NCBI RefSeq assembly: GCF_005233845.1
Contig: NZ_SZQL01000013.1
Coordinates: forward strand, 1-64,000
DNA length: 64,000 nucleotides
DNA from: Ilyomonas limi
GTDB taxonomy: Bacteria; Bacteroidota; Bacteroidia; Chitinophagales; Chitinophagaceae
Reading direction: 5' to 3'
Both the position numbers and the translations under genes were made by a program. Under the pieces are notes generated by a model, which made no database searches, was not told the DNA's origin, and saw only the letters and a program-made list of their open reading frames with translations. Below are positions 44,482 through 52,849 of the stretch, piece after piece (positions within the stretch are counted from its first letter, which is position 1; every line of letters starts with the position of its first letter).

Positions 44482-45657
44482 ATGACGAAAGTAATTTTGA
44501 AGCGAAAGATTGCACCACGTATTGCCAATGGGCACCCGTGGATTTTTAATAACGAAATCAATAATATTGAAGGCGTAGTAACACCCGGTGACATAGTAGA
44601 TGTACAATTTGCTGATGGCTCTTTTGCCGGACGTGGTTACATCAACCCTCAATCACAAATTGTGGTACGATTGCTCACGCGTAAAAAAGAAGAAATAAAT
44701 ACCGCTTTCTTTTACAACCGTATCTTAAAAGCCTGGCATTACCGCCAAAAGACCGGCTATATTGAAAACTGCCGCCTTGTGTTTGGCGAGGCCGACTACC
44801 TGCCATCCCTCATTATAGATAAGTTCAACGATTACTTTTCTATACAAACCATGTCGCTCGGCATGGACAAATGGAAGCCGGCAATTGTAAAAGCGTTGGA
44901 GCAAATATTTAATCCCAAAGGCATTTACGAGCGCAACGATGTGCCGGTGCGTGAACTGGAAGGTTTGCCGCAGCAAAAAGGCTTTCTATCTGCACCCTTC
45001 GATACCACGATTGAAATAAATGAAAACGGCTTGCGCTTTATGGTGGATATTCAAAACGGACAAAAAACCGGCTATTTTTTAGACCAGCAGGATAACCGAC
45101 GCGCTATCAGGCATATTGTAAAAGACGCTGATGTACTTGGTGCATTTACCTACACCGGCACGTTTGAAATACATGCGGCGCACTATGGCGCAAAGCGTGT
45201 ATTAGGGTTAGATATTTCGGAGAGTGCGGTGGCGCAGGCAAATAACAATGCACGGCTGAATGGCTTAGAAAACATTGTGCAATTTGAAGCCATGAATGCC
45301 TTTGATGTATTAAAGCAATGGGTAAAAGATAAACGCCAGTACGATGTAGTAATGCTAGACCCGCCGGCATTTACCAAAAGCCGTGAAAACATACAAAAAG
45401 CAATTACCGGCTATAAAGAAATCAACCTCCGTGGCATGAGGCTGGTAAAGAATGGTGGCTTCCTTGTTACGAGCAGTTGCACCAACCTGGTATCGCCCGA
45501 ATTGTTTTTACAAACCATTGCGATGGCTGCAAAAGATGCGCGCAAAAACATACGGCAGGTTACGTTTCGGGCACAGGCAAGCGACCACCCCATTATCTGG
45601 GGGATGGAGAATACAAATTACCTGAAATTCCTGATTGTGGAAGTGAGTGATATATAA
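44482..45657 (+). CDS. rlmI: Class I SAM-dependent rRNA methyltransferase, RlmI type
   Basis: 391 residues. An N-terminal PUA-like domain (1-75, RIANGHPWIFNNEI) is followed by a Rossmann methyltransferase: motif I GAFTYTGTFEIHAAHYGAKR, the acidic loop LGLDISESAVAQA, the catalytic DPPAFTKSRE and TSSCTNLV with the cysteine. The family makes m5C at position 1962 of 23S rRNA (E. coli numbering). Length and domain order are standard. It runs divergently from the YtxH gene and ends just before the inverted-repeat element at 45666. Confidence 0.92.
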   Translation: MTKVILKRKIAPRIANGHPWIFNNEINNIEGVVTPGDIVDVQFADGSFAGRGYINPQSQIVVRLLTRKKEEINTAFFYNRILKAWHYRQKTGYIENCRLVFGEADYLPSLIIDKFNDYFSIQTMSLGMDKWKPAIVKALEQIFNPKGIYERNDVPVRELEGLPQQKGFLSAPFDTTIEINENGLRFMVDIQNGQKTGYFLDQQDNRRAIRHIVKDADVLGAFTYTGTFEIHAAHYGAKRVLGLDISESAVAQANNNARLNGLENIVQFEAMNAFDVLKQWVKDKRQYDVVMLDPPAFTKSRENIQKAITGYKEINLRGMRLVKNGGFLVTSSCTNLVSPELFLQTIAMAAKDARKNIRQVTFRAQASDHPIIWGMENTNYLKFLIVEVSDI

Positions 45658-45665
45658 GTTTTTCG

Positions 45666-45845
45666 CACCGCAGATAATGGAGTAAATGGAGTTTTCGCAG
45701 AAATATATTTTGAATTAATAAAAGCATTTAATGTATTTCCTGCCTTTGCCGGTGAAGAACACCGGCAAAGGCAAAAAGGTAAATAATATTGTCAATTTAA
45801 AAACTGTTTCTGCGAAAACTCCATTTACTCCATTATCTGGCGGTG
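45666..45845. repeat. 180-bp inverted-repeat element with nested hairpin
   Basis: The arms CACCGCAGATAATGGAGTAA... (45666-45703) and its complement (45807-45845) match over 38 bp with a single extra base. Inside is a separate 14-bp perfect stem (TGCCTTTGCCGGTG 45741-45754 with 45760-45773) with a 5-base loop. The whole unit could be a MITE-like element or a structured RNA placed after rlmI. No other copy is in the window. Its ends lie directly next to the rlmI stop. Confidence 0.7.
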
Positions 45846-45946
45846 AAAAGGATTTTAAACTTATCACCGTTTCAACCATCTTTATAGTCTTTGTTTAACG
45901 CGGCTTTGTAATTGCCACTTTTACATTTGCTTAAAACCTATATACA

Positions 45947-46693
45947 ATGAAGTTTTTAGTATTATTATTTTCCAGTGCGATAGTATTTTCAAATACATCA
46001 CATGCACAGGTATTGAAGAATATTTTAAAGAAAGATTCCTCCTTACAGAATAAAGTGAATGGACTTTTTTCCGGTAATAGTTCCTCCCTAAGCACTACCG
46101 AAATTGCAAATGGTTTAAAGGAAGCCCTGAACAAAGGGGTTGAAACCGGCACCTCCAAACTATCGGCTGTAGATGGATTTTTTAAAGACGCTGCGATTAA
46201 AATATTACTACCGCCCGAAGCGCAAAAGGTAGAGAAAACCTTGCGCAGTGCAGGCTTTGATAAGCCGGTAGATGAAGCTATTTTAAGCATGAACCGCGCT
46301 GCCGAAGATGCCGCCAAGAGTGCTGCGCCTATATTTTTAAATGCCATTAAGCAAATGACGATTAATGATGCAGTGGGCATTTTAAAAGGCCGCGACAGTG
46401 CTGCTACTACTTATCTCAGAACTAAAAGCACGGCGGCTTTAACAGAAGCTTTTAAACCAATTATTTCCACTTCTCTTGAGAAAGTAGATGCTACTAAATA
46501 TTGGAATACTGTTTTTACAACCTACAACAAACTGCCCTTTGCAACCAGCAAAGTAAATCCCGATTTAACGGCTTATGTAACAGACAAAGCTTTAGCAGGT
46601 ATTTTTCACGAGATAGCATTACAGGAAATGCAAATACGCCAAAATCCTGCAGCAAGAACTACAGACTTACTCAAAAAAGTTTTTGGTCAATAA
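45947..46693 (+). CDS. DUF4197 domain-containing exported protein (copy 1)
   Basis: 248 residues. Signal peptide 1-20 (SHA-Q). The DUF4197 domain starts at LSTTEIANGLKEALNKGVET and contains LSAVDGFFKDAAIKILLPPE, LSMNRAAEDAAKSAAPIF and LKGRDSAATTYLRTKSTAAL. The family is helical, exported and of unknown function. It forms a tandem pair with the next gene (18 bp apart). The two domains are clearly paralogous and share long identical stretches. Confidence 0.93.
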   Translation: MKFLVLLFSSAIVFSNTSHAQVLKNILKKDSSLQNKVNGLFSGNSSSLSTTEIANGLKEALNKGVETGTSKLSAVDGFFKDAAIKILLPPEAQKVEKTLRSAGFDKPVDEAILSMNRAAEDAAKSAAPIFLNAIKQMTINDAVGILKGRDSAATTYLRTKSTAALTEAFKPIISTSLEKVDATKYWNTVFTTYNKLPFATSKVNPDLTAYVTDKALAGIFHEIALQEMQIRQNPAARTTDLLKKVFGQ

Positions 46694-52728: not shown

Positions 52729-52849
52729 CCGTCATTGCGAGCAATAGCAATGCAGGGAGCAATCTGTGCGAAGCTGCAAATCATTATTGATGGATTATTT
52801 TGGTTGTACTACTACCCACAGATTGCTTCGCTGTTGCTCGCAATGACGG
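52729..52849. repeat. Intergenic inverted repeat (interspersed repeat type)
   Basis: CCGTCATTGCGAGCAATAGC and CAATCTGTG in the left arm (52729-52768) are mirrored by CACAGATTGCTTCG and TTGCTCGCAATGACGG in the right arm (52817-52849). The arms differ by a short insertion in the left one. Sequences of this kind (GTCATTGCGAGC... AAGCAATCTG) are scattered in many bacterial genomes. The right arm ends 4 bp from the ornithine aminotransferase stop. Confidence 0.7.

Follow-up and report, generated by a model that had tools for sequence, protein, structure and literature searches.

The palindrome at positions 45666-45848 of the window (the whole stretch analysed here, 64,000 nucleotides, corresponding to positions 1-64,000 of the forward strand of contig NZ_SZQL01000013.1 in the Ilyomonas limi assembly GCF_005233845.1) is 183 bp long and is probably MITE-like, a gene-less representative of a family of small mobile palindromes whose full-length members would carry a GxxExxY gene, the product of which putatively acts on the ends.

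Structure of the palindrome and its copies in Ilyomonas limi

The element and its neighbouring genes comprise the following features.

45666..45704, + strand: left end (arm); matches model R1, which includes the window arms, at E 3.1e-10, and model R2, built without them, at E 6e-8
45808..45848, - strand: right end (arm), repeating the left end in inverted orientation; R1 E 9.7e-10, R2 E 3.3e-7
45705..45807, no strand: interior, consisting of the nested hairpin and A+T-rich stretches of weak complementarity
45741..45773, no strand: nested perfect hairpin TGCCTTTGCCGGTG-AAGAA-CACCGGCAAAGGCA, belonging to a second repeat family of the Ilyomonas limi genome
44482..45657, + strand: upstream ORF, putatively rlmI; the relatives kept (n = 80) are 77-84% identical
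45947..46693, + strand: downstream ORF of 248 aa, starting 98 bases past the element

Read directly, positions 45671-45703 and 45807-45839 form 33 contiguous perfect pairs, the pairing extends further outward if one side is given one extra base, and over 71 nt (45671-45741 with 45769-45839) the arms are 80% complementary. The RNA fold of the element reaches -105.7 kcal/mol, compared with -37.8 (s.d. 4.2) for shuffled sequences (z -16.0), and the DNA fold -66.3 compared with -17.1 (s.d. 3.0; z -16.3); in both cases none of 200 shuffles folded as well. In an inverted-repeat scan of the window (188-nt stretches, 20-nt steps) the element scored 44.5 and the next unrelated place 19.0, and the top score among 2000 mononucleotide shuffles of the element was 14.5. 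The inverted-repeat element and the separate 14-bp stem described by the initial annotation are therefore both borne out, the latter as 14 perfect pairs (45741-45754 with 45760-45773) around the 5-nt loop AAGAA, and its limits, 45666-45845, were correct to within 3 bp, the family model setting the right end at 45848. The annotation, from which the name rlmI is taken, was likewise right to place the element just past the upstream stop codon (45655-45657), from which it is separated by 8 bases. No GxxExxY match at E<=1 was found among the open frames of at least 40 aa in the window. The downstream ORF lies behind none of the 80 rlmI relatives, some of which have short flanks, so that these offer no matching (empty) site for the window copy. 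Several rlmI relatives have other palindromes directly behind the rlmI stop; in other Chitinophagaceae, different palindromes occupy this position at L211, L212, L215, L221, L237, L245, L248 and L278, as if the site were favoured. The end of the upstream ORF (45587-45603) and the right arm (45827-45843) have CCATTATCTGG in common (17 nt, 88%), in a stretch where the window copy deviates from the family consensus, either by chance or as a copy of its neighbour.

The Ilyomonas limi genome (5.88 Mb in 70 contigs) holds many copies with the same ends. With the whole element as query (40 of 76 candidates scored), the places found at E<=0.001 were the element itself, one outer-arm match, one interior match and at least 18 further places with the inner hairpin. 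A 25-base arm piece occurs with up to 3 mismatches at 4 places and a 23-base piece at 15, the window's two arms being counted in each case, and the 23-base piece was found nowhere in 58 relatives. R1, a sequence-only model of 20 arms (alignment A1) with the window arms among them, gave at least 73 matches at E<=1 (150 of 2362 candidates scored), the consensus of the 20 arms being TTTCACCGCGGAGAACAGGAGTAAATAGAGTTTTCGCAGAG. Fifty of the 73 matches make 25 inward-facing pairs of 72-369 bp, with none facing outward, and 11 of these pairs, at only 72-92 bp, amount to two arms whose matches are separated by 6-21 nt. R2, a model of 14 arms from which those of the window and of the copy L080 were left out, recovers both window arms at the E values given above and has no further match in the 64 kb at E<=10. 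The element is thus multi-copy, and cannot be set aside as a single-copy, unconserved structure. That it is a product of chance or of assembly is extremely improbable and already refuted by the copy number; the folding z of about -16 and the recurrence of the same ends across numerous contigs as well as in a second genus argue against it too.

The nested hairpin represents a second repeat family, TTTGCCGGTG-5 nt-CACCGGCAAA, nested in the first; it occupies 45741-45773 in the window and the loci L009-L024 elsewhere in the Ilyomonas limi genome, often close to another hairpin, GTTGGTGAAGAACACCAAC. By eye, foreign-looking repeats also stand inside other large copies, in L082 one starting CGTCATTACAAGC and in L167, from the second genus, one with ATTATTA units, and the size differences between copies would therefore come at least partly from nesting. 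In two Ilyomonas limi copies (L079 and L109) a third short repeat, a small palindrome of TGTCTGCC-ACAGGCAG type, appears, by eye, to break up the arms.

The stability of the fold raises the alternative that the hairpins are functional RNAs or transcription-termination structures kept by selection in a REP-like manner, whatever their origin, which we regard as quite improbable. Their gene context was read from open frames of at least 240 nt within about 500 bp on each side. The 25 Ilyomonas limi copies lie between same-strand genes in 12 cases, convergent genes in 5 and divergent genes in 5, with 3 undetermined, and 24 of them have no ORF spanning them. Eight of the 12 same-strand copies are no more than 10 bp from the stop codon of the upstream gene, as a role in termination would suggest, but the 25 copies show no convergent bias. 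A consensus scan for intrinsic terminators had no match in the element and was, with this absence of bias, our reason to reject an intrinsic terminator; a known RNA family was rejected as well, as the Rfam search of the full 64 kb yielded nothing at gathering score. Selection for pairing would also keep the two arms of a copy alike. On a first measure this was not apparent in Ilyomonas limi (0.701 within copies vs 0.695 between them; 7210 of 20000 permutations, 23 pairs). Local alignment gave 559/20000 for all 23 pairs and 56/20000 for the 19 left when four with uncertain limits (L079, L103, L108 and L109) were taken out, which favours the RNA or termination reading, but the matching became weak (2225/20000) when the two best-matched of the 23, the window copy and L080, were removed too. 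We accordingly rejected the idea that arms are kept alike in every copy, which is clear in the second genus but depends in Ilyomonas limi largely on these two copies. With these two set aside, no clear excess of within-copy arm similarity is left, so that most Ilyomonas limi copies look old.

Occurrence in other genomes and evidence for mobility

At E<=0.01, R1 found matches in 7 of 59 genomes, Ilyomonas limi included (106 candidates scored per genome, with stricter filters). Outside Ilyomonas limi, many matches occurred only in G021, a member of another genus of the same family, Chitinophagaceae, with 37 matches, among which 12 pairs face inward (118-484 bp) and one faces outward. Five further genomes have 1-3 matches each; judged by eye, the single matches in G023, G025 and G040 look like chance, and those in G012 and G029 like real ends. 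In the sole outward pair of G021 (L130, G021:C1:1383502-1383581) the model matches directly adjoin each other, an arrangement reminiscent of a joined circle or of a copy turned inside out.

In G021 the arms are clearly more alike within copies than between them (0.897 vs 0.857 in 14 copies; 0/20000 permutations), and compensatory changes occur in 8 of 35 predicted pairs (12 of the 14 copies). Both observations speak for selection on an RNA or a terminator, and the second is what stands of the structured RNA suggested by the initial annotation, the nil result with Rfam and the lack of convergent bias having gone against it. The copying or correction of palindromes could, however, also yield matching arms, and the patchy spread over 7 of 59 genomes is a further argument against that reading.

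Presence and absence between related genomes points to mobility of the family. G140, a congener of G021, gave no R1 match at E<=0.01 among the 150 candidates scored of 1222. The aligned flanks of the G021 element L161, which carries a GxxExxY gene, are 24 bp apart in G140 vs 524 bp in G021, and for L167, a copy of 173 bp without the gene, the distance is 239 bp vs 392 bp, the G140 gap showing no inverted repeat that exceeds background; for the third copy used as a query, L165, only one flank was found. Alignment of the flanks thus shows the absence of two family members (two of the three sites) at matching sites of G140. At about 75% identity these alignments are too coarse to give the exact ends or to reveal a duplication, and loss in G140 would give the same picture.

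Target duplications were not detected in 16 Ilyomonas limi and 14 G021 copies: direct repeats between the flanks, in a test where the element ends are not fixed to the base, were no longer than between permuted flanks, with 493/1000 and 724/1000 permutations, respectively, reaching the observed mean. The MITE reading of the initial annotation is consequently upheld in several respects, namely a short non-coding element with inverted repeats at both ends, many dispersed copies with common ends and variable size, and presence or absence between related genomes (the latter for two other family members only), but not as regards target duplication.

Two of the 14 G021 copies (L166 and L169), and none of the 16 Ilyomonas limi copies, sit inside other palindromes, and raise the mean for palindromes around copies in G021 (49/5000 permutations); with such numbers, insertion into pre-existing palindromes was rejected as a general rule. 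L166 (G021:C1:1648109-1649280) is a nested insertion, the surrounding palindrome having different ends (CCGCAAGGGCGC... / ...GCGCCCTTGCGG).

The GxxExxY gene and inverted ends

The ends of the window element also enclose a gene. The widest Ilyomonas limi pair (L080, C23:176228-176596, 369 bp) holds a decayed GxxExxY fragment, which matches positions 49-111 of the 116 in the family profile, is without the first part and continues in another frame, and the G021 pair L161 (C1:781246/781729) holds a GxxExxY gene that is intact, with 128 codons. R2, which contains arms of neither, recognises the ends of both (E 1.2e-13 and 1.6e-10 for L080; 2.2e-8 and 1e-5 for L161), so that ends common to the window element and a GxxExxY-carrying copy are found in two genera. 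In comparisons of the L080 gene, its shorter piece ranks L161 first and its longer piece ranks it 7th of 88. The initial annotation had proposed to look for an autonomous transposase with the same ends; the longer relative with these ends carries GxxExxY, whose part in movement is hypothetical, and no known transposase was found in it. A scan of two Ilyomonas limi proteins assigns GxxExxY to TIGR04256 / PF13366, 'PD-(D/E)XK nuclease superfamily' (PDDEXK_3). Among 25 aligned proteins the invariant columns include H18, G22, G24, E27, Y30, D67, E77, K79 and Y95, and Q91 is at least 90% conserved; the D...(D/E)xK residues of the superfamily (D67, E77 and K79) are thus present in 25/25, alongside the PF13366 match. 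We take the pattern E...D...ExK...Q...Y to resemble that of the RecB/Cas4 group. A single-sequence structure prediction was unusable (pLDDT 39.6), and no solved relative was found at E<=1. By its family match and conserved residues, the gene inside these ends encodes a putative PD-(D/E)XK-superfamily protein and not a classical or otherwise known transposase.

Ends of the window type stand on both sides of one of the four GxxExxY loci in Ilyomonas limi and of only one of 92 beyond it. In one other Ilyomonas limi locus (L044, C23:54248-54586) the GxxExxY gene has no clear inverted ends and its neighbours are presumably trpG and trpD. GxxExxY genes occur in 92 of 147 Chitinophagaceae genomes at E<=1e-15, and inverted ends of some type are common around them. 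We used 88 of 95 loci, which are the top of the match list plus those of Ilyomonas limi and G021, and hence no random sample; four were dropped for want of an ORF by the motif filter and three for short flanks. An inverted repeat between the flanks scored at least 13 for 61 of the 88 genes (27 scored lower) compared with 0 of 174 displaced windows, and at least 12 for 70 genes compared with 2 windows. As the displaced windows came from long-flank loci only and were mostly coding, the flanks of rlmI were taken as a second control, and scored at least 13 in 4 of 69 cases (11 of 80 dropped). The arms of the 61 loci are built from units that vary (e.g. CACAGAG, CGCAAAG and ATGATTT), with lag identities of 0.33, 0.34 and 0.32 at 8, 9 and 10 nt compared with 0.23-0.30 at the other lags from 4 to 14 nt; in the window arm the lag identity peaks at 9 (0.47). 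Similarity of the ends follows similarity of the proteins across the 61 loci (Mantel Spearman 0.27; 0/2000 permutations), a correlation that common descent of gene and ends suffices to explain.

Beyond this family, GxxExxY relatives were found in eight plasmid records, six of which we examined, and in one IMG/VR contig. The Ilyomonas limi protein as query had no match in IMG/VR; alignment A2 found the one contig, as did the contig's own protein, and the G021-type end as an exact pattern was not found in viral contigs. Clear inverted ends were present in four of the seven records outside Chitinophagaceae (Bacteroides finegoldii, Bernardetia, Gemmatirosa of the Gemmatimonadota, and the IMG/VR contig) and were not seen in the other three (Sphingomonas, a Fusobacteriota plasmid and Persicobacter). 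In the Sphingomonas record the gene lies between fabD and fabG. On the Fusobacteria plasmid pZRK30-1 (L357), the GxxExxY gene (701-1075) is flanked, as noticed by eye, by directly repeated stretches of about 50 nt (AATC.GTGAAAAT...CAGATTTAATCCGTGTACCTAT).

A second small gene shows a parallel association. S23 (TIGR02436, a four-helix-bundle protein) was found in 45 of 60 Chitinophagaceae genomes at the limit used, and 23 of 26 S23 genes (from L181-L210, 30 loci less four that were dropped, and including two whose ORFs were misread) are flanked by inverted arrays scoring above the 99th percentile of the controls, nine of the 26 exceeding the control maximum. The S23 arrays, with units such as TTGGATG, CAGTTGA and TAAGTAT, have a sharp 7-nt period, the lag identity being 0.65 at 7 and 0.59 at 14 nt.

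These associations bear on the possibility that the ends are mobilised by another activity, for instance a Y1/HUH REP-type transposase or template switching during replication, with GxxExxY a passenger or resident, which we consider unlikely although not negligible. Such a reading would fit the failure to detect target duplications at the family borders, as none are expected of HUH elements. The arrays around S23 genes suggest that palindromes may serve as landing sites in general, as do the two G021 copies that sit within other palindromes. On the other hand, the GxxExxY proteins and their ends diverge together, the GxxExxY arrays show a broad peak at 8-10 nt (0.32-0.34) compared with the sharp 7-nt period of S23, and the same ends enclose GxxExxY in two genera. 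The association of S23 with inverted arrays can itself be read either way, for or against a passenger.

Proposed mechanism and relation to known elements

We infer that the GxxExxY protein moves the element, and propose a series of linked steps. The full form, of about 0.5 kb, would consist of two inverted ends around the single gene GxxExxY, each end being made of degenerate units with a repeat of about 8-10 nt. The protein may recognise the ends, perhaps as extruded or single-stranded hairpins, and would cut or resolve the DNA there, whereupon host repair or replication would put a copy elsewhere, without target duplication and often just past a stop codon. Gene-less copies would be moved in trans, and the later insertion of a second hairpin repeat in the middle of one such copy may have produced the hairpin within a hairpin seen in the window. 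More tentatively, GxxExxY elements may form a separate mobile class, spread over at least two phyla, in which one small PD-(D/E)XK-type nuclease moves its own palindromic ends. No DDE, HUH, tyrosine or serine chemistry and no target duplication would be involved, and copies such as that of the window would be hairpin-only derivatives; S23, with its 7-nt arrays, would then represent a second class. Both genes, GxxExxY and S23, are small, common and devoid of a functional annotation, and the tie of each to its own type of inverted end gives it a testable role, while puzzling intergenic hairpins would be explained as the remains of identifiable elements. If the GxxExxY protein does move the ends, a nuclease-only route would join the known routes of DNA movement.

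Parts of this picture are familiar from other systems. Bacterial MITEs, among which PMC3733652 counts RUP, NEMIS and ERIC, are non-coding elements of 70-300 bp with inverted ends, many copies and kinship to a longer gene-carrying element, and in these respects the window family is like them. It is unlike them in having no detected target duplication, in the gene between its ends, which belongs to the PD-(D/E)XK superfamily and is not an IS transposase, and in its arms of 41-43 bp, which make up nearly all of the shortest copies. The intervening sequences of 23S rRNA, as presented in PMC4990558, are also small, with complementary ends that form a stem and one small gene inside; they are termed a selfish element there, a mobile-element origin being proposed and mobility unproven. 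They differ from the window family in their gene (S23, not GxxExxY) and their site (rRNA, not intergenic), and the two systems may be parallel, as the S23 genes of Chitinophagaceae lie between inverted arrays.

In the open-access literature we found no description of such ends or of a link between GxxExxY and inverted repeats, the scope of that literature making this absence weak evidence, and searches for the repeat sequences as strings and for PDDEXK_3 returned nothing. The passages of PMC4679880 on TAACTGA repeats mention neither S23 nor GxxExxY.

REP and BIME sequences, associated with RAYT proteins and divided into GTAG and CGTC superfamilies, are palindromes that lie between genes and often just past them, according to PMC3733652, as do the copies of the window family. 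The family differs from them in its longer outer arms, in the absence of either tag at its start and in an unrelated gene: the element reads TTTTTCGCACCGC... over 183 bp, with no unpaired GTAG or CGTC tag beside a palindrome of 20-40 bp. A further inverted repeat of the window, at 52729-52849 and starting CCGTCATTGCGAG, has the look of a CGTC-tagged REP as named in PMC3733652.
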